This document shows, in pieces, positions 1,617 through 48,253 of a DNA stretch of 64,000 nucleotides. Source of the stretch: Porticoccus hydrocarbonoclasticus MCTG13d (GTDB lineage: Bacteria; Pseudomonadota; Gammaproteobacteria; Pseudomonadales; Porticoccaceae). The notes under the pieces are model-generated. The model was not told the DNA's origin. It saw only the letters and a list, made by a program, of their open reading frames with translations, and did no database searches. The position numbers and the translations under genes were made by a program. Each line of letters opens with the position of its first letter. The stretch's first letter is position 1. The stretch spans positions 124,001 to 188,000 of the forward strand of contig NZ_JQMM01000001.1 in the NCBI RefSeq assembly GCF_000744735.1, in the 5' to 3' direction.

Positions 1617-3763
1617 TAATCAAGCAAAGCTTCATTCAGTATTTTGGGAGTGATAAAAATCAGGATTTCACGCTTCTGAATATCCTCGATATCGTGACGG
1701 AACAGGCGACCCAGGTAGGGAACATCGCCCAGGAACGGGACTTTCTCCACATTGTCGACAGTCTGCATCTGGAACAGTCCGCCAAGCACCAGGGTCTGAC
1801 CATCGCCAACAATGGCTTTTGTCTCAACCTGGGTAATATCAATAACTGGCTCTCCGGTAGGCAGGAGGTCACCCACAGAATCCTGTGCCACATTAATGTC
1901 CATTACGATACGACCATCCGGCGTAATCTGCGGGGTCACTTCAAGCAAAAGCACCGCTTCCTTGAACTGGGTGGAGGTGGCACCACTTGATGTGGCATTC
2001 TGATAGGGAATTTCAGTACCGGTTTTGATCGAGGCCTGCTGCTTGTCGCCAGTCAACACCTTGGGTTGCGAAACAATTTCACCCTTGCCCTCGTTTTCCA
2101 GCGCGCTGAGCTCTAGGTCAATGAACGTATTGTTGGTCAAAAGCTCCAGCGCAAAGCTGCCATTGGGGTCTTCTACGCCAAGATCCACTCCCAACCCGGC
2201 ATCATTCACCAGAATGGAACCGATACCCGGTGTGCCATCAAAAGCATCAATCGGGTTCACCCCGCCATCAAAACCCTCCAATGAACCCGAGAAACCGAAC
2301 TGTGAATTACCTGGGTTGCGCAGGCCCTGCAAGCCCATCCGCGCACCGATCTCTTTTCTGAAATCACGGTTGGCAATGACGATCCTGGCTTCGATCAGAA
2401 CCTGCTTGACTGGAATATCAATTTGATCAATCAGCCGCTTGAACTCAAGGATCTTATCTTCTGTGTCAGTGAGAATAATCGTGTTGGTGCGGTTATCGAC
2501 AATCGCAGAACCCCGTTCGGACAGAATACTGTCAGTGGCTGTACGACTTCCGGAACTTCCGCCACTACTGCCTCCACGAACATCAAATAACTCATAAAGC
2601 GCTTTCGCATCAGCATACTTCACACGAATAAATTCAGTCCTGAGCGGTGCCAGTTCCTGAAGTTGCTTATTGGCCTCAACCTGAAGCCGTTCCCGCTCTG
2701 CAATTTCAGCCGCCGGGGCAACCATCAATACGTTGCCTTCCTGTCGTTTGTCCAACCCTTTCGCCTTTAGCACAATATCGAGGGCCTGATCCCAGGGAAC
2801 ATTTTCCAGACGGAGGGTGATGCTGCCTGACACCGTGTCACTGGCCACCAGGTTCAGATCGGTAAAGTCAGCAATCAACTGCAATACTGATCTGACTTCA
2901 ATGTCCTGAAAATTCAGCGACAGTTTTTCGCCGACATAGGCAAATTTGGATCTTTGGTTTTCCAGCTCTTCTTCTGACAGGGGTTTCAGGCTAACAATAT
3001 ATTGATCATCTGTCTGGTAAGCCATGTAATCATATTCACCAACGGCTTTTATCAACACCGTTGAGGTAGAGCCATCAAAGCTGGCATCAACTTCCTTTAC
3101 AGGTGTAGCGAAATCAACCACATCCAACCGGCGATCAAGAGACTCTGGCAGCATCGTGCGAAAGAAACGCAGTTTGACATCGCCACCAGACTGGGAAATA
3201 TCAATACTTGTGGCAGGGTTAGACAGATCAATGACCACCAATCCTTCACCTTCCTCGCCACGGCGGAAATCAACACCCTGAATACTATAAGTGGGGGCAC
3301 TGGTGCGATCTTCACTAGCCACAGCACCGACAATACTGGCCTTCCTGGGCGCACTTCTGGCAACACCGTCGTTTGCACCCACCAACAAAACAATGCTGTT
3401 TCCATCTATGTGGGTTTCATAGGGTGCCATTTTCAGCATATTCAGAATGACACGGGTACGGTCTGACGTGCCCAACACGACCGCACTTCTGGCATTTTCG
3501 AATGATAGAGCATATTTTTTTTGATCCAGCGCACTGGCTACACTGGGCAAATCCAGAACTATCCTGGCCGGATTATCTATCGTGTAACCGTCCGGTGCAG
3601 GGGGAGTATCGGAGAAGTCCATGCGGACTTCGAAGCGGCCGCCAGGCAAAGTTGCAAAGCTGATATCCTCGAGCACCACCTCAGCCAACACCTGTGATGA
3701 CAGGCCCAAATAGGCCAAACACCCGGCCAATACCAATATGCTCTTTTTCAGATAGCCTTTCAT
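1616..3763 (-). CDS. pilQ: Type IV pilus secretin PilQ
   Basis: Outer-membrane secretin through which the type IV pilus fibre exits. The 715-residue protein starts with a signal peptide (cleavage expected after VLA near residue 27). Two beta-rich AMIN peptidoglycan-binding regions follow in the first 260 residues. Next comes an STN/N0 domain (LNFQDIEVRSVLQLIADFTD) near residue 285, a NolW repeat, and a Gly/Ser-rich linker (GGSSGGSSGS). The C-terminal half is a secretin beta domain with the typical SQPKVLTGDKQQA and TGTEIPY segments. It is the last pil gene of the pilMNOPQ operon, 23 bp after pilP, and overlaps aroK by one base. Confidence 0.97.
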   Translation of the reverse strand: MKGYLKKSILVLAGCLAYLGLSSQVLAEVVLEDISFATLPGGRFEVRMDFSDTPPAPDGYTIDNPARIVLDLPSVASALDQKKYALSFENARSAVVLGTSDRTRVILNMLKMAPYETHIDGNSIVLLVGANDGVARSAPRKASIVGAVASEDRTSAPTYSIQGVDFRRGEEGEGLVVIDLSNPATSIDISQSGGDVKLRFFRTMLPESLDRRLDVVDFATPVKEVDASFDGSTSTVLIKAVGEYDYMAYQTDDQYIVSLKPLSEEELENQRSKFAYVGEKLSLNFQDIEVRSVLQLIADFTDLNLVASDTVSGSITLRLENVPWDQALDIVLKAKGLDKRQEGNVLMVAPAAEIAERERLQVEANKQLQELAPLRTEFIRVKYADAKALYELFDVRGGSSGGSSGSRTATDSILSERGSAIVDNRTNTIILTDTEDKILEFKRLIDQIDIPVKQVLIEARIVIANRDFRKEIGARMGLQGLRNPGNSQFGFSGSLEGFDGGVNPIDAFDGTPGIGSILVNDAGLGVDLGVEDPNGSFALELLTNNTFIDLELSALENEGKGEIVSQPKVLTGDKQQASIKTGTEIPYQNATSSGATSTQFKEAVLLLEVTPQITPDGRIVMDINVAQDSVGDLLPTGEPVIDITQVETKAIVGDGQTLVLGGLFQMQTVDNVEKVPFLGDVPYLGRLFRHDIEDIQKREILIFITPKILNEALLD

Positions 3764-3786
3764 CTCAGTTTCCCCAAACCTCTCGA

Positions 3787-4323
3787 TTAGTCTTTCTCAT
3801 TCAGACCCAGGGTGCGCGGACGCTCTACCCAGTTTCCTTTCCCGTCGGGAACAATTTCAATTACGTCTACCTTGGCATTCGATATGGCGGTGATCCGTCC
3901 GTAATTTTTTCCCAAATAGTTACCGACAGTAACTCGGTGAATACCACCACTCCCGTCATTAATCAACGACCACATTTGCCCTTTCCTGGAAAGAATCCCC
4001 ACCATGGATAACGCAGCAAAGTTGAAACTTTCGAGGTATTCTTTTTTCCGGTTTTCACTGGGCGGCTCTACCGTGCTCTTACCGGCAAAACTTTCCGCCG
4101 AACCAGCGAGCAGCGGGGCATCGAAAGGGCTCCGCATGGCGATAGCTCCGTATCGGAAAGTTTTGTGAGAACGAAAAGTAGGCAGAGGCTCAATTTCCCC
4201 GACAGGACGCGCCTTGATCTCCTGCATGTAATTTTGCAAATCGTTATAGCTTTTATCGCCAGAGCAACCCGATAGCAGAACACAGCCGGCAATCAGGAAA
4301 GTCAAACCTTTCAACTTGGTCAT
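3787..4323 (-). CDS. pilP: Type IV pilus inner-membrane lipoprotein PilP
   Basis: Periplasmic lipoprotein that links the PilMNO inner-membrane platform to the secretin PilQ. The 178-residue product begins with a lipoprotein signal whose lipobox LLSGC puts the lipidated Cys at residue 20. A flexible stretch and a C-terminal beta-sandwich (HRVTVGNYLGKNYGRI) follow, typical of PilP/HofP. It starts 3 bp after the pilO stop codon and is followed by pilQ after 23 bp, so the genes are almost certainly cotranscribed. Confidence 0.95.
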   Translation of the reverse strand: MTKLKGLTFLIAGCVLLSGCSGDKSYNDLQNYMQEIKARPVGEIEPLPTFRSHKTFRYGAIAMRSPFDAPLLAGSAESFAGKSTVEPPSENRKKEYLESFNFAALSMVGILSRKGQMWSLINDGSGGIHRVTVGNYLGKNYGRITAISNAKVDVIEIVPDGKGNWVERPRTLGLNEKD

Positions 4324-4326
4324 TTC

Positions 4327-4938
4327 CTAGTCTTCCTGTGTCTTGTAGCGGTAGGTTTTGGCTTGGATTTCCAACGCCAAAAGCCCTCCACTCCCTTTAG
4401 CTGACAAACTGTAGTCATGCAGAGTAACTATCCGTGGCAGGCCTGCCACACCACTGACAAAGGCACCCACATCATGATAACCACCCTCGGCAACAATTTT
4501 TATTGGCAACTCCACGTAAAACTCCGCTGACCGCTCGGGCTGAAGTGTAATACTGGAAATATTCAGGCTTGCACCGTGACCGATTTCTGTAATGTCCTCC
4601 AGCAATCCAGGCACTTCAGTATCACTTGGCAGCTGCGCCAGCAAGGCGTTAAAAAGCTTTTCCACTTCGGCCATCTGTATTCTGTATGCCTCAAGATTTG
4701 CCGCCTGGAATGCCTTTTGTTCAAAGTTACTCTTTAACTTGACCTCTTGAGATTTAGCTTGCTCCAGCTCTACACCAAGATCCTTGACATGAAAGTAATA
4801 GGTACCAGCCAACACCAGGGAAAAAATAACGATCAACAACAGCACTCTGACAGGAAGCGGCCATACGCCGATACTGTCAAAATCCAAGTCTGTGAAATCA
4901 AAATCCTTTAATTGCTGTAAGGAATCACTTAACGCCAT
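4327..4938 (-). CDS. pilO: Type IV pilus alignment protein PilO
   Basis: Bitopic inner-membrane protein that pairs with PilN to form the periplasmic alignment collar of the pilus machine. The 203-residue sequence has a short cytoplasmic N-terminus, one membrane span (about residues 30-49, VRVLLLIVIFSLVLAGTYYF), a coiled coil (ELEQAKSQEVKLKS) and a ferredoxin-like periplasmic domain. The fold, size and position between pilN and pilP make the call secure. Its start codon overlaps the pilN stop by one base. Confidence 0.95.
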   Translation of the reverse strand: MALSDSLQQLKDFDFTDLDFDSIGVWPLPVRVLLLIVIFSLVLAGTYYFHVKDLGVELEQAKSQEVKLKSNFEQKAFQAANLEAYRIQMAEVEKLFNALLAQLPSDTEVPGLLEDITEIGHGASLNISSITLQPERSAEFYVELPIKIVAEGGYHDVGAFVSGVAGLPRIVTLHDYSLSAKGSGGLLALEIQAKTYRYKTQED

Positions 4939-5526: not shown

Positions 5527-6615
<1,089 letters not shown>

Positions 6616-32155: not shown

Positions 32156-32239
32156 GCCAATAAAAAATCCGGTAGAGGCACGATCAATCTGACAACGTGC
32201 GAAAGAAGAAAAAGAAATAGGACAGGGAGATTGTGGGTT

Positions 32240-43607: not shown

Positions 43608-44054
43608 ATGCCTAAGAAAGCAGAAACTGTCACCATTGCCTCACTTCATGGCTTCACCCCCTACAAGGAAAAGAAGGGTGAGGAGTTCATGAACGACAAT
43701 CAGCGCAGCCACTTCAAGCAGATTCTGCTGGCTTGGAAACGCGAGCTGATGGAAGAAGTTGATCGAACCGTATCCCATATGAAGGATGAGGCGGCCAATT
43801 TCCCGGATCCTGCCGACCGCGCCACGCAGGAAGAGGAGTTCAGCCTGGAGCTCAGAACCCGCGACCGGGAGCGCAAACTGATCAGGAAAATTGACAGCAC
43901 CATTGAGCGAATCGAAGCCAACGACTACGGCTTTTGTGATCAGTGTGGTGTTGAGATCGGTATTCGGCGCCTGGAAGCACGCCCCACGGCAAACCTTTGT
44001 GTCGACTGTAAAACCCTTGATGAAATAAGGGAAAAGCAACTGACCGGTGGTTGA
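43608..44054 (+). CDS. dksA: RNA polymerase-binding transcription factor DksA
   Basis: Secondary-channel factor that works with ppGpp in the stringent response. The 148-residue protein has the coiled-coil tip DPADRATQEEE near residues 67-77 and the zinc finger Cys110, Cys113, Cys131, Cys134. The ATG at 43608 (MPKKAETVTIASLHG) is used; a longer open frame upstream is not conserved. It is followed by gluQ after 44 bp. Confidence 0.96.
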   Translation: MPKKAETVTIASLHGFTPYKEKKGEEFMNDNQRSHFKQILLAWKRELMEEVDRTVSHMKDEAANFPDPADRATQEEEFSLELRTRDRERKLIRKIDSTIERIEANDYGFCDQCGVEIGIRRLEARPTANLCVDCKTLDEIREKQLTGG

Positions 44055-44098
44055 CGCGCCTTGAGGGAAATGGCAATTTGCCACTTTCCTCAGTTGCT

Positions 44099-44995
44099 AT
44101 GGCCTCTCCCCGTAATCACCCCGCCTACACAGGGCGCTTTGCGCCTTCTCCCACCGGCCCATTGCATTTTGGTTCACTGGTTACCGCGCTGGCCAGTTAT
44201 CTTGATGCAAAAGCGCAGGGTGGAACTTGGCTGGTACGTATGGAGGATATTGATCCCCCCCGCCAACTGCCAGGTGCCGAAGATACCATTCTCCGGCAAC
44301 TAGAAGCCCACAGCCTGCTCTGGGATGGACAGCCCCTCTACCAGAGCCAGCGCAGCGAGGCTTACGTTGCCGCACTGGAAGAACTCAGCCACAGCGGCCT
44401 CGCGTATCCCTGCCATTGCAGTCGCCAAGTCCTGCAAGATACCGGCGGCCTGCATCAACGCAGCTGCGTTCCCGGCGACCTCGAGCAACCACACGCTCTC
44501 CGACTGTCGGTTCCCAACAACTGTTTTATCGCATTCACCGATCTATTTCAGGGCCGTCAACAACAATGGGTCAAGCAAACCGCTGGCGATTTCGTGCTAC
44601 TTCGCAAAGATGGCCTGTTTGCCTACCAACTGGCGGTTGTCATAGATGACGCATACCAGGGTATCAGCCACATTATCCGCGGCAGCGATTTACTCGACTC
44701 GACCGCGAGGCAGGTCTGTCTGCAGCAACTGTTAACCCTGCCAACTCCCGTGTACGGGCATCTCCCGATCGCTGTCAATGAACAGGGGCACAAACTCAGC
44801 AAGCAAAACCTGGCACCGCCGGTGGACAACCGACAGCCTGGCGCCAACCTGCTCGCGGCCATGCACTGGCTGGGTATGCAACCGCCCGCTGACCTGCCGG
44901 CCACCAGTCCGGAAGCATTGCTTGAGTGGGGCGTACGCAACTGGCAGCGGACTCAATTACCCCAATTGATACAAATACCGGCGCCGGCACTGTAG
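44099..44995 (+). CDS. gluQ: Glutamyl-Q tRNA(Asp) synthetase
   Basis: Truncated glutamyl-tRNA synthetase that attaches glutamate to queuosine of tRNA-Asp. The 298-residue protein has the class I HIGH-type motif in GRFAPSPTGPLHFGSL and a KLSKQ motif near the C-terminus, and lacks the anticodon-binding domain. Zinc ligands appear as CHCSR with a later Cys. The ATG at 44099 starts the conserved part. The dksA-gluQ pair is widespread in gammaproteobacteria. Confidence 0.95.
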   Translation: MASPRNHPAYTGRFAPSPTGPLHFGSLVTALASYLDAKAQGGTWLVRMEDIDPPRQLPGAEDTILRQLEAHSLLWDGQPLYQSQRSEAYVAALEELSHSGLAYPCHCSRQVLQDTGGLHQRSCVPGDLEQPHALRLSVPNNCFIAFTDLFQGRQQQWVKQTAGDFVLLRKDGLFAYQLAVVIDDAYQGISHIIRGSDLLDSTARQVCLQQLLTLPTPVYGHLPIAVNEQGHKLSKQNLAPPVDNRQPGANLLAAMHWLGMQPPADLPATSPEALLEWGVRNWQRTQLPQLIQIPAPAL

Positions 44996-45100: not shown

Positions 45101-46471
45101 ATGAACAAGATTCTGATTGTTGAAGACGAAGATATTTTTCGCACTTCACTGAGAAGGCTGCTTGAACATCACCATTTCGAGACCCGTGAAGCAAAAAATA
45201 TCGAAGACGCGCTCAATCGTTTTGAGCTCACTGACTTTTCAATGATCATCAGCGATCTGAGACTTCCCGGCGCACCGGGCACCGACCTGATTCAGCTGGC
45301 CGGCGCAGTACCCGTATTGATCATGACCAGCTACGCCAGCCTGAAATGCGCCGTGGAAACCATGCGCATGGGTGCAGTCGATTATATCCCCAAGCCCTTC
45401 GATCATGCGGAGCTGTTGGAAGCTGTGACCCGCATCATGGACAAGCCACGTCCTGTCGGACAGCGCCATGCCCCCGACCTGTCCAATCGCGGCATGATCG
45501 GCTCAAGTCCCGCCATGAAAACCGTTTACAATATTATTCAAAAAGTGGCCCGAACCGATGCAACAGTTCTGATCCACGGGGAAACCGGCACCGGCAAAGA
45601 ACTGGCTGCCAGCGCCATTCACAATGAGAGTCCCCGGGCAAAGAAACAACTCATCTGTGTTAACTGCGCCGCGATCCCGGAAACACTGATTGAAGCGGAA
45701 TTGTTTGGTCATGAGAAAGGGGCATTCACCGGCGCCACTGAAGCACGCAAAGGTCTTGTCGCAGCTGCCGATGGCGGCACACTGTTCCTGGATGAAGTGG
45801 GCGAACTGCCACTGGAAGCCCAGGCAAGACTGCTACGGGTCATACAGGAAAAAGAGGTTCGCGCCATCGGCTCGGTCAAGTCGCGCAAGGTGGATGTCCG
45901 TCTCGTCGCAGCGACTCACCGCAACCTGAAAAAACTCTGCGAACAGGGTCGCTTTCGCGAAGACCTGTTTTACCGGATCAACGTGGTTAACCTGAACCTG
46001 CCACCATTGCGGGAACGGGGCAAGGATATCCTGGAAATTGCTGATATGTTGCTGGCCAAACAGGGCCAAAAGCTCGACAGGCATCATCTCAAGCTGGCAC
46101 CGGATGCCATCCAGGCCATCACCATGTATAACTGGCCGGGCAATATCCGTGAACTGGAAAACTCCCTGGAACGGGCCAGTATTCTGTGTGATGAAAATCA
46201 GCAGATCAGCCATGACTTGCTGGGCATTGAACTGTCATTGGTAGAGATTGGAGATCAACCAAGCCGTCTCCGTTCGACTCCGGCAAACATCAAGCATATC
46301 GACACAGACCCCCCGGAGGGATTGTCGCTCGAGGATTATTTCACCCGCTTTGTACTGGAACACCAGGAAGCCATGAGCGAGACCGAGCTAGCCAGAAAAC
46401 TGGGTATCAGTCGCAAATGTCTATGGGAACGACGCCAGAAGCTGGGTATTCCCCGTCAAAAAAACGATTAG
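45101..46471 (+). CDS. cbrB: Sigma-54-dependent response regulator CbrB
   Basis: NtrC-family activator. Receiver with phosphoacceptor Asp52 ([15 protein letters not shown]), AAA+ domain with Walker A GETGTGK at 160-166 and an intact sigma-54-contacting GAFTGA at 207-212, and a C-terminal helix-turn-helix ([19 protein letters not shown]). It resembles Pseudomonas CbrB closely and lies in the same context (dksA, gluQ, pcnB). The kinase gene cbrA, normally directly upstream, is absent: only 105 bp separate gluQ and cbrB. CbrB controls carbon-nitrogen balance and catabolite repression in pseudomonads. Confidence 0.94.
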
Positions 46472-46494
46472 CCAGCTGTTTCACCAGAACCAAC

Positions 46495-46580
46495 TGTTAC
46501 CTTATTAACCAGCCCGTCGTGTAGATAGGTAACAAAACTGATGAATTTATGTGCGACACGTCACAAAAAAATACGTAACA
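46495..46580 (+). promoter_or_regulatory. Candidate CbrB activator half-sites
   Basis: TGTTACC (46495-46501) and GGTAACA (46528-46534) form an inverted pair, and another GTAACA stands at 46575-46580. All lie upstream of the sigma-54 promoter at 46607. TGTTAC/GTAACA halves resemble those reported for CbrB at the Pseudomonas crcZ promoter (recalled knowledge). Confidence 0.6.
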
Positions 46581-46606
46581 CTTTGTTTATAAAGGCTTTA
46601 ATTTTC

Positions 46607-46622
46607 TGGCACGCTTCATGCT
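46607..46622 (+). promoter_or_regulatory. Sigma-54 promoter of the candidate CrcZ-like RNA
   Basis: TGGCACGCTTCATGCT has the full -24 TGGCACG and a -12 ATGCT with the required 12-base GG-to-GC step (46608 and 46620). Predicted start is about 46631. It lies 136 bp after cbrB, itself a sigma-54 activator. Confidence 0.85.
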
Positions 46623-46630
46623 CATCTATA

Positions 46631-46773
46631 GACACAATAAAAACAGCAACTATTAAAAAAATAAACAATAAAAATAATACAGGATGGATTGCTAGGAGGT
46701 TGACAAGGGGGGTAGACCCATCGACCAATAGCCTATGGGATACAGGGGGAAGCTTGAATGCTTCCCCTTTTTT
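46631..46773 (+). ncRNA. Candidate CrcZ-like Hfq/Crc-sequestering small RNA
   Basis: About 143 nt from the predicted sigma-54 start to the U-tract of a rho-independent terminator. The first 50 nt are very A-rich with at least five partly overlapping AANAANAA matches (46636-46643, 46657-46664, 46664-46671, 46667-46674, 46670-46677), the motif that Hfq with Crc binds on CrcZ. A short CCCAT/ATGGG stem precedes the terminator. AGGAGG occurs at 46694 but no ATG/GTG is suitably placed after it, so it appears noncoding. Same locus (cbrB-pcnB) as crcZ in Pseudomonas, but much shorter than the about 400-nt CrcZ. The function is inferred. Confidence 0.7.
46746..46773 (+). terminator. Rho-independent terminator of the CrcZ-like RNA
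   Basis: Eight-bp perfect stem GGGGAAGC/GCTTCCCC with a 6-base loop, followed by six Ts. Confidence 0.9.
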
Positions 46774-46786
46774 AATGTCCCCCAGA

Positions 46787-46808
46787 ATTGATCTGATCCC
46801 AGATCAAT
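46787..46808. repeat. Perfect palindrome upstream of pcnB
   Basis: ATTGATCT-GATCCC-AGATCAAT, 8-bp arms, with no following T-run. It lies 78 bp before the pcnB ATG and could be an operator or an mRNA-leader hairpin. Confidence 0.5.
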
Positions 46809-46885
46809 ATCAGCGTGACTGCCAACAGTCTTTTTGTCATACCCTGTGCTAGAATCGCCAGTTTACGGGTCTACGCCACCACAAC

Positions 46886-48253
46886 ATGCTAAAAAAGCTT
46901 TCCAAATATTTCAGGAGACACGCTCTCCCAGTTATCAGCGAACCCCATATTGTCCGCTCCGGAGGGCACCCGCTCTCCGCCAGGCAGATTACCAGTGGTG
47001 CGAGAAAGGTTGTCGAACAATTGGTCAGCGATGGCTTTCAGGCCTACCTGGTCGGTGGTTGTGTCCGCGACCTGATGCTGGGATTGAGTCCCAAGGATTT
47101 CGACGTAGCCACCGATGCCACACCGGAGCAGGTCAACAAACTGTTCCGGCGAGCCCGAATAGTCGGCCGCCGCTTCCAGATTGTGCATGTCCGCATGGGC
47201 GCCGAAGTTATCGAGGTAACCACCTTTCGGGCCCATCACACCGAACAGGGCTCAAACACCCGGGATGAATCACACCGATCCGCCAAGGGCCTGCTGCTGA
47301 GAGACAACCTCTTCGGCTCTATCAACGAAGATGCCAGTCGTCGTGATTTCACCATGAACGCCCTCTACTATCACCCGCAGGATAATAGCGTTTATGACTA
47401 CGCCAATGGCCTGGCAGACATAGAGCGACGCATAATCAGGATCATCGGCGACCCAGAGGTACGCTATCGGGAAGATCCGGTCAGGATGCTTCGAGCCATT
47501 CGCTTTGCCGGAAAACTCGGTTTCAGTATTGAGGAAAAAAGTGCCGCCGCTATCAGTAAAATGGCACACCTGCTGGCAGATATTCCACCGGCCCGGCTGT
47601 TTGATGAAGTCCTCAAGCTACTGATGCACGGTCAGGCCCTGGTCACTTTCCGACTACTCCGGGAATATGATCTGTTTCGTCTACTGTTTCCCGCGACCGA
47701 AGACGCCCTGAATGAAGACCCCGGCTGGTATCTTGAGTTTATTGAGCAGGCCCTGACCAATACCGACAAACGCATTCGCTCGGGCAAACGGGTGACACCG
47801 GCATTTTTGTTTGCCGCACTGCTCTGGCCGGCGGCCAAACAGGCCAACAAAAAATTTGAGCGCTCCAACATTTCTCCGGTCTACGCCTTGCAACAGGCCA
47901 CCGCAGACGTGCTGCACAGAGCCTGCCAGCGGGTAGCCATTCCCCGCCGCTTCAGTATGCCAATGCGAGAGATCTGGGAGATGCAATTGCGCCTCCCCCG
48001 TCGCAATGGCAGCCAAGCCTTCCGCCTGATGGAAAATAAACGGTTTCGTGCCGGTTATGACTTCCTGTTATTGCGAGAAGATGCCGGCGAACTGGAACCT
48101 GGTCTGGGAGTCTGGTGGACCCGCTTTCAGGAAATGGACGAAGATCAGCGACTCAAGATGGTCAGCACTCTGGCCGAGCCGACACCCACCAAAAAACGTC
48201 GTCGGCGGCGGCCGCGCCGGTCACCGGCCACAACCCAGCCAGACCATGACTGA
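46886..48253 (+). CDS. pcnB: Poly(A) polymerase I
   Basis: Adds 3' poly(A) tails that destabilise RNA. The 455-residue protein has the class II nucleotidyltransferase head LVGGCVRDLMLGLSPKDFDV (catalytic Asp71 and Asp73), GRRFQIVHVR, and a strongly basic tail (KKRRRRRPRRS). The poly(A)-polymerase rather than CCA-enzyme identity is supported by the basic tail and the pcnB-folK context. It overlaps folK by 8 bp. Confidence 0.95.
   Translation: MLKKLSKYFRRHALPVISEPHIVRSGGHPLSARQITSGARKVVEQLVSDGFQAYLVGGCVRDLMLGLSPKDFDVATDATPEQVNKLFRRARIVGRRFQIVHVRMGAEVIEVTTFRAHHTEQGSNTRDESHRSAKGLLLRDNLFGSINEDASRRDFTMNALYYHPQDNSVYDYANGLADIERRIIRIIGDPEVRYREDPVRMLRAIRFAGKLGFSIEEKSAAAISKMAHLLADIPPARLFDEVLKLLMHGQALVTFRLLREYDLFRLLFPATEDALNEDPGWYLEFIEQALTNTDKRIRSGKRVTPAFLFAALLWPAAKQANKKFERSNISPVYALQQATADVLHRACQRVAIPRRFSMPMREIWEMQLRLPRRNGSQAFRLMENKRFRAGYDFLLLREDAGELEPGLGVWWTRFQEMDEDQRLKMVSTLAEPTPTKKRRRRRPRRSPATTQPDHD

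Follow-up and report, generated by a model that had tools for sequence, protein, structure and literature searches.

A predicted compact CrcZ-like RNA between cbrB and pcnB in Porticoccus hydrocarbonoclasticus and its relatives

The CbrAB-CrcZ system is described as exclusive to Pseudomonadaceae, with CbrAB and CrcZ placed in Pseudomonas and Azotobacter alone, in PMC8871633 and PMC6296734. A 64,000-nucleotide stretch of the Porticoccus hydrocarbonoclasticus MCTG13d genome, referred to here as the window, raises the question of whether a CrcZ-like RNA is also encoded outside this family. An earlier note on this DNA had proposed such an RNA in the gap between cbrB and pcnB. The gap is 414 bp long, as that note had given it, and runs from the stop of a response regulator gene at 46471 to the start of pcnB at 46886. 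Upstream on the same forward strand lie gluQ (GluQRS; 44051 to 44995; NCBIfam NF004314, 382 bits against a cut-off of 256; start codon uncertain) and the response regulator gene, cbrB (45101 to 46471); downstream is pcnB, for poly(A) polymerase (46886 to 48253; TIGR01942, 534.9 bits). An extended -10-like element recognized by eye, TGTGCTAGAAT (46845 to 46855, forward strand), recurs 5' of pcnB in many relatives and suggests that pcnB probably has its own promoter.

The CbrB of the CbrAB system is a sigma-54 activator with a receiver, a GAFTGA motif, and a helix-turn-helix (HTH), and the window protein has all of these. A motif check found the receiver aspartate D52, an AAA+ domain with Walk A (GETGTGKE) and Walk B, the sigma-54 loop GAFTGA, and a Fis-type HTH. 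In a comparison limited to the 80 best of at least 591 candidates, the regulators of loci L002 to L009 are 57 to 64% identical to the window protein, and those from L010 onwards are at most 45% identical. Both gluQ and pcnB flank the regulator in seven of these eight loci; L005 has neither inside the fetched DNA. On position, identity, and domain layout, we identify the response regulator at 45101 to 46471 as the CbrB orthologue.

Promoter elements for a CbrB-activated transcript are present in the gap. The sigma-54 promoter claimed by the earlier note at 46607 to 46622 on the forward strand (TGGCACGCTTCATGCT, of the GG-N10-GC form) held up, scoring 15 on an in-house 16-point scale. This score was reached in 16 of 2,000 mononucleotide shuffles of the gap, counting either strand, and five sites in the 64-kb window score at least 15 on the two strands together. 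The half-sites reported upstream of the promoter were likewise found. They comprise one CbrB-type F subsite, TGTTAC (46495 to 46500), and two R subsites, GTAACA (46529 to 46534 and 46575 to 46580), all on the forward strand and following the definition in PMC6296734; three or more such subsites occurred in 4 of 2,000 dinucleotide shuffles of the upstream part of the gap. The proposed transcript start near 46631 shifts slightly, because the C of the -12 element is at 46621 and the start is therefore best placed at approximately 46633; the proposed length of approximately 143 nt stands.

The predicted RNA thus extends from 46633, a 5' end deduced from the -12 element, to 46775 on the forward strand. 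It begins with an A-rich tract (46636 to 46678) that contains two runs of five A-R-N repeats (46636 to 46650 and 46664 to 46678) and presumably serves as one or more sites for the distal face of Hfq. As the note had stated, the A-rich stretch has at least five AANAANAA matches: the RNA contains five overlapping or three non-overlapping copies, counts that were reached in 5 and 13, respectively, of 2,000 dinucleotide shuffles of the gap. A run of five A-R-N repeats arose in 87 of 2,000 dinucleotide shuffles and is weak evidence alone. Only two places on either strand of the window have a cluster of at least three overlapping AANAANAA motifs. The one at 46657 is the larger; the other cluster of this CA motif, at 32203, was set aside as a purine-rich stretch between two genes. 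Beyond the tract, alignments revealed a conserved box, GGATGGATTGC (46682 to 46692), followed by a core hairpin (46691 to 46732) with GCUA/UAGC, GGUUGA/UCGACC, and GGG/CCC helices and a G-rich, UAG-containing loop. The RNA ends in an intrinsic terminator (46744 to 46773) consisting of a 10-pair stem (46744 to 46769) and a T run to 46773. Its folding energy of -18.2 kcal/mol (z -4.7) bears out the description of the terminator as strong. The predicted RNA as a whole (46631 to 46775) folds with a z of -3.8, driven by the terminator; the core alone gives -1.5. A 103-aa open reading frame across the RNA (46541 to 46852) was considered and rejected. Among 14 relatives it is whole only in the near-identical L084, and in the others the start is missing, stops intervene, or there is little or no match.

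We made twelve pairwise comparisons of the window RNA and its flanks, with shuffled backgrounds. Against the sister species G085 and G071, RNA identity is 83% and 85%, compared with 60% in both upstream flanks, 58% and 61% downstream, and a shuffled background of 48 to 52%. Against G074 and G073, the RNA is 72% and 76% identical and the flanks are 52 to 60% identical. In the more distant genomes G066, G095, G094, G070, and G097, RNA identity is 60 to 65%, and the flanks are within 6 points of background. Two genomes, G072 (RNA 96%, flanks 94% and 87%) and G083 (97%, 85%, and 86%), are too close to discriminate, and the comparison with G005 (RNA 59%, upstream flank 60%) gives no excess. This contrast between RNA and flanks shows that the compact RNA is a unit under selection.

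The predicted structure was then examined on two alignments of relatives, A4, which was fitted to the structure, and A5, an unfitted MAFFT alignment of 22 sequences from g1, g8, g5, and g11. The outer core helices were taken from single-sequence folds and then counted on the alignments. On A4, 87.9% of cells pair (shuffle mean, 71.7%; reached by 0 of 500 shuffles; slid versions, at most 58.7%), and each of the 21 pairs shows a two-sided change at least once. On A5, 96.3% of cells pair (shuffle mean, 88.8%; again reached by 0 of 500). Two-sided changes on A5 occur in 9 of 19 pairs, seven of them in the terminator, two in helix 2, and none in helices 1 and 3, and the number of pair types was reached by 52 of 500 shuffles. 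When RNAalifold was run on MAFFT alignments, it returned the terminator and the inner GGG/CCC helix and missed the outer core helices. Covariation of the terminator is thus clear; for the core, which is conserved and consistent, it leans on the fitted alignment.

The earlier note had called this RNA CrcZ-like, a claim that stood for its locus, promoter, subsites, repeats, and terminator and did not extend to the Rfam CrcZ family. Against RF01675, the RNA scores 17.6 bits in a search of 551 bases (E 0.013), short of the gathering score of 95 bits, and the whole window has no Rfam match at gathering score. As a control, the Pseudomonadaceae loci L004 and L008 match Rfam CrcZ between cbrB and pcnB with 349.6 and 272.1 bits. 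The L004 gap also contains a match to the Rfam P36 sRNA (6477 to 6537; 42 bits, threshold 36) just 5' of CrcZ. In the other direction, we searched with two covariance models of the compact RNA, R1, built from 14 family sequences and used at E <= 0.01, and R2, built from 58 matches and used across the order. R1 matches Pseudomonas CrcZ at E 6.8 in L004 and 3.9 in L008, and R2 does so at E 0.63 in L008, with L004 absent up to E 5; these values are not significant. The loci L002, L003, and L007 are matched by R1 and R2 at E 0.0006 to 0.0065, and in the R2 alignments to them most of the match comes from the A-rich tract and terminator. Taking Rfam score, length, and number of A-rich stretches together, we classify the window RNA as a compact CrcZ-like RNA, not a member of CrcZ.

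The compact RNA is widespread in the family. R1 found it in 75 of 112 family genomes and 13 of 14 genera; 15 of these 75 genomes are in, or identical to, the training set, and 60 of the 97 genomes outside it have a match. Across 390 genomes of the order, R2 matched 13, of which 12 belong to the family itself and one (G442) does not; in G442 the match falls within a longer A-rich stretch of the cbrB-pcnB gap. One locus was examined in each of 90 family genomes, the other 22 of the 112 having neither a CbrB match at 1e-140 nor an R1 match; 79 loci have the RNA, 8 have none, and 3 are cut by contig ends (G049, G052, and G069). At 15 cbrB-bearing family loci the RNA is 134 to 166 nt long by the end rule of our script, which gives 369, 402, and 309 nt for L002, L003, and L007, respectively. 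The compact RNA is also present in lineages that retain CbrA (G004, G005, G066, G070, G094, G095, and G097). The window's genome has no paralogues of the CrcY or CrcX kind, either by DNA comparison or by model at E <= 0.01. In six of seven g11 genomes (L182, L183, L184, L186, L187, and L188), the RNA occurs as tandem copies, spaced by approximately 270 to 330 bp from start to start, each complete with its own terminator; these genomes have no cbrAB at the locus and keep Crc. Within the window's genus, L107 (L203), L109 (L204), L201, and L202 have lost cbrA and cbrB, and their RNA keeps the A-rich tract and terminator with the sigma-54 site gone and the loop altered, which could represent early decay or rewiring.

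CbrA is missing at the locus in the window's genus. In other lineages cbrA sits between gluQ and cbrB; here there is no space for it between the gluQ end at 44995 and the cbrB start at 45101, and it is absent from all 13 loci of the genus that were examined. A search with the Gilvimarinus CbrA reading frame found no CbrA elsewhere in the window's genome. All 13 matches, the best at 1.4e-21, fall within query residues 629 to 993, the histidine kinase part, and none covers the SLC5-type transporter domain to which the kinase of CbrA is fused. The earlier note had remarked on neither this absence nor the conserved hairpin core of the RNA. Ten sister genomes encode a protein of approximately 1,200 aa with 30 to 33% identity over the CbrA transporter part, which we take to be another kinase. 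The window CbrB thus looks like an orphan, and because no CbrA was found in its genome, it must act without CbrA. It might require little phosphorylation, as reported for Pseudomonas putida CbrB, which is barely phosphorylation dependent according to PMC6296734, or it might be served by another kinase. A low need for phosphorylation may be the reason that the loss of CbrA is tolerated.

The other partners of a CrcZ-type system are present. RpoN and Hfq were each found in 107 of the 112 family genomes, including that of the window. The window Hfq matches Pseudomonas aeruginosa Hfq over 79 residues, with Phe at the Tyr25 position of the distal site (L261). A search for Crc with one query at E <= 1e-20 detected it in 38 of 112 family genomes, including the window's (47% identity), where the protein has Crc 4jg3 as its best PDB match (8.6e-67). 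Crc was detected in g5, g7, g11, G078, G079, G084, and G096, and with this single query and threshold it was undetected in g6, g9, g14, and G080. The RNA persists in g6, g9, and g14 without detected Crc, which suggests that Crc may not be an essential partner. A second Crc/ExoIII-like protein, 28 to 32% identical, is encoded in all six g5 genomes, all seven g11 genomes, and G063 (G006 to G011, G063, and G087 to G093).

Taken together, we consider it likely, with a probability of roughly two in three, that 46633 to 46775 encodes a compact CrcZ-like regulatory RNA driven by CbrB and sigma-54. CbrB bound to its subsites would activate RNA polymerase containing sigma-54, so that the RNA would be made when good carbon sources run out; Hfq would bind its A-R-N repeats, and the RNA would relieve repression by Hfq and Crc, by analogy with P. 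aeruginosa CrcZ, which titrates Hfq and competes with other RNAs (PMC4063720 and PMC5501646). Hfq titration is in our judgment the likeliest function. Weighing against the CrcZ-like reading are the undetected CbrA, the Rfam score, the frequency of A-R-N runs in shuffles, the Phe at the Tyr25 position of the window Hfq, the lack of excess conservation against G005, and the persistence of the RNA where Crc was undetected. This short RNA would have room for one or two Hfq hexamers, and a pure Hfq sponge leaves the conserved hairpin core unexplained. Because few hexamers fit and the core hairpin has no role in titration, an Hfq-dependent base-pairing sRNA is a serious rival, although we regard it as clearly less probable than the CrcZ-like reading. 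Such an sRNA would share the locus and control of CrcZ and not its decoy mechanism, with the A-rich tract and U-tail binding Hfq and the G-rich UAG core loop acting as the seed. Its size fits, as 143 nt with a terminator is typical of sRNAs, and one to two Hfq sites suit a complex of one RNA with one hexamer. The family-wide conservation of the core, where two-sided changes are seen on A4 and, for two pairs, also on A5, and the retention of the RNA in genomes without detected Crc also fit. However, the loop letters vary between genera (GGGGGGUAGACCC, GGGGGGUUAGGACCC, GGGUGGGUUAGAUCC), and a seed is usually constant.

Two further explanations seem to us very improbable. The structure and terminator could form a leader or attenuator that governs read-through into pcnB, as the terminator ends 112 bp 5' of pcnB on the same strand and this arrangement is kept in most loci examined. 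Many loci, however, have a separate extended -10-like element 5' of pcnB (by eye), the g11 genomes with two complete tandem copies have a terminator on each, and in eight g6 loci without detected RNA only 89 to 166 bp precede pcnB. Alternatively, the element could be a decaying relic of CrcZ in a genome without CbrA, transcribed at most. Its shortness and the missing CbrA at the 13 genus loci would agree with decay, as would the four genus members without cbrB, whose RNA no longer has the sigma-54 site and is missing much of its loop. Yet the window's clade keeps the promoter, subsites, A-rich tract, and core while the flanks diverge, the CbrA-retaining lineages have the same compact form, and the pairwise comparisons suggest that substitution rates in the RNA are below those of neutral intergenic DNA.

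A sigma-54-competent CbrB is encoded at 16 of the 90 family loci, with GAFTGA or, in G005, GSFTGA (in the record, the G004 gene carries a frameshift). Every one of these loci has a sigma-54 site scoring 14 to 16, and Crc was detected in each of the 16 genomes. A further 36 loci, in g6 and g9, encode a longer CbrB with a degenerate AAA+ domain that lacks GAFTGA by motif search; an alignment of 12 of these showed a deleted loop and an altered Walk B. Elsewhere, in g14 (G099, G107, and G111), G022, G025, G040, G059, G060, and G096, the AAA+ domain is gone, leaving a receiver and HTH of 176 to 191 aa; this deletion appears in four separate places of the PcnB tree (by eye), G096 being one. Finally, 24 loci (five in g5, four in g7, seven in g11, four in g1, and four in g6) have no cbrB between gluQ and pcnB. 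At L215, L216, L217, L214, L221, L225, L241, and L245, a receiver fused directly to a Fis-type HTH is encoded 3' of a cbrA match.

A GG-N10-GC site scoring at least 13 is found near the start of 15 of 15 RNAs with a competent CbrB, plus that of G076. In the other classes it is found in 1 of 28 RNAs with a degenerate AAA+ domain (G016, with a score of 13 at another distance), in 1 of 9 receiver-HTH RNAs, where the G096 site is a true one, and in none of the 30 CbrB-less RNAs (24 genomes) or the 2 unclassified ones. Formal matches therefore occur in 2 of 67 RNAs with a degenerate, AAA+-less, or absent CbrB, and one of them is genuine. At that locus (L254 of G096, 3706 to 4720), the sigma-54 promoter is intact and two CbrB subsites are present beside an AAA+-less CbrB, which may reflect recent domain loss before promoter change or an assembly effect. 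Of the competent loci, 15 of 16 have one or more CbrB subsites, on average 1.9 where shuffles would give 0.10. One or more subsites also occur in 14 of 28 loci with a degenerate AAA+ domain (mean, 0.68 against 0.09), 3 of 24 loci without CbrB (0.125 against 0.12), and 1 of 9 receiver-HTH loci, namely G096. Half of the degenerate CbrBs thus still face a CbrB-type site. The AANAANAA motif is kept in every CbrB class, with 1 to 8 overlapping matches per RNA.

Other promoter patterns appear where the sigma-54 site is missing. The pattern TTGNNN-16-TANAAT, chosen after inspection of the data and a consensus match only, is found close to the start of the RNA in 18 of the 28 loci with a degenerate AAA+ domain and in 5 of the 9 receiver-HTH loci, and in 0 of 15 competent-CbrB and 0 of 30 CbrB-less ones. 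Among CbrB-less loci, three of four in g7 have TTGCCA-17-TAGCAT or TAATAT, and some g5 and g11 copies have TTTGCA or TTTACA-18-TATTAT, again as consensus matches only. A general -35/-10 score of at least 9 was tried as a marker of AAA+ loss and discarded, as it was reached in 11 of 30 CbrB-less, 1 of 28 degenerate, 0 of 9 receiver-HTH, and 0 of 15 competent cases. A PcnB tree of 92 rows, built by a quick method, has 4 changes of the sigma-54 site, 9 of CbrB class, and 2 of Crc. The joint loss of competent CbrB and the sigma-54 site is not significant by a sign test on three supported independent pairs (two the same, none opposite, and one with no difference); the tree backs only about four promoter losses.

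We lean, by a narrow margin over even odds, toward the view that the constant part of this system is the RNA and not its regulators, and that the RNA was handed from sigma-54 and CbrB to -35/-10-type promoters several times. CbrB would have taken several routes, losing the loop and Walk B in g9 and most of g6, losing the AAA+ domain in g14, two g6 groups, and G096, and vanishing with CbrA in g5, g7, g11, and some of g1 and g6. In g6, g9, and g14, Crc would be gone too, while Hfq is kept, as is the RNA in most loci. If so, the family would offer a natural series in which an RNA gene passes from enhancer dependence to ordinary promoters, natural intermediates between a sigma-54 enhancer-binding protein and a plain response regulator, and an Hfq-directed RNA working without Crc. 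The needs of the RNA (Hfq, a terminator, and a hairpin core) would then be separable from features thought to define the system.

The search of related genomes that the earlier note had called for found the cbrB-RNA-pcnB arrangement in the window's family, in Halomonadaceae, and in Gilvimarinus and Cellvibrionaceae, and thus also beyond Pseudomonadaceae. In the open-access literature searched, including PMC6296734, PMC8871633, PMC4063720, PMC12533007, PMC5501646, and PMC5715377, no report was found of the compact RNA, of a CbrB without GAFTGA, or of CrcZ beyond Pseudomonas and Azotobacter.

How, then, does the window locus compare with known systems? Like CrcZ of Pseudomonas and Azotobacter (RF01675), the predicted RNA lies between cbrB and pcnB on the same strand, has a sigma-54 promoter with TGTTAC and GTAACA subsites, A-rich repeats of the Hfq type, and a terminator, and is accompanied by genes for Hfq, Crc, and RpoN in its genome. 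Unlike CrcZ, it has its own hairpin core, and its genome has no detected CbrA. It is also much shorter, as the earlier note had remarked: its approximately 143 nt are a third of the 407 nt of CrcZ, and it has two (A-R-N)5 runs where CrcZ has six A-rich stretches (both CrcZ values from PMC4063720). A second comparison is with the long CrcZ-like RNAs of Gilvimarinus (L002 and L003), a Cellvibrionaceae MAG (L007), and Halomonadaceae (L006 and L009), whose loci share the order gluQ, cbrB, RNA region, and pcnB, a sigma-54 score of 15 of 16, and many AANAANAA motifs. None of the five passes the Rfam CrcZ threshold. They have room for cbrA between gluQ and cbrB (cbrA itself was read in L002 only), and L002, L003, and L007 differ from the window in their length of 309 to 402 nt and their 17 to 29 overlapping AANAANAA matches. 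The cbrB-pcnB gaps of L006 and L009 are approximately 1 kb long, with a sigma-54 site and 10 to 18 overlapping AANAANAA matches, and probably hold unannotated CrcZ-like RNAs. With CbrAB, the window shares a CbrB that is orthologous by position, identity, and domain layout, and it differs in that CbrA was not found in its genome or at 13 of 13 genus loci. What sets the window's family apart is an RNA a third as long as CrcZ, found without CbrA in the window's genus and, in relatives, outliving its sigma-54 activator and apparently Crc; relative to the known CrcZ systems, this rewiring around the RNA is the newest part.
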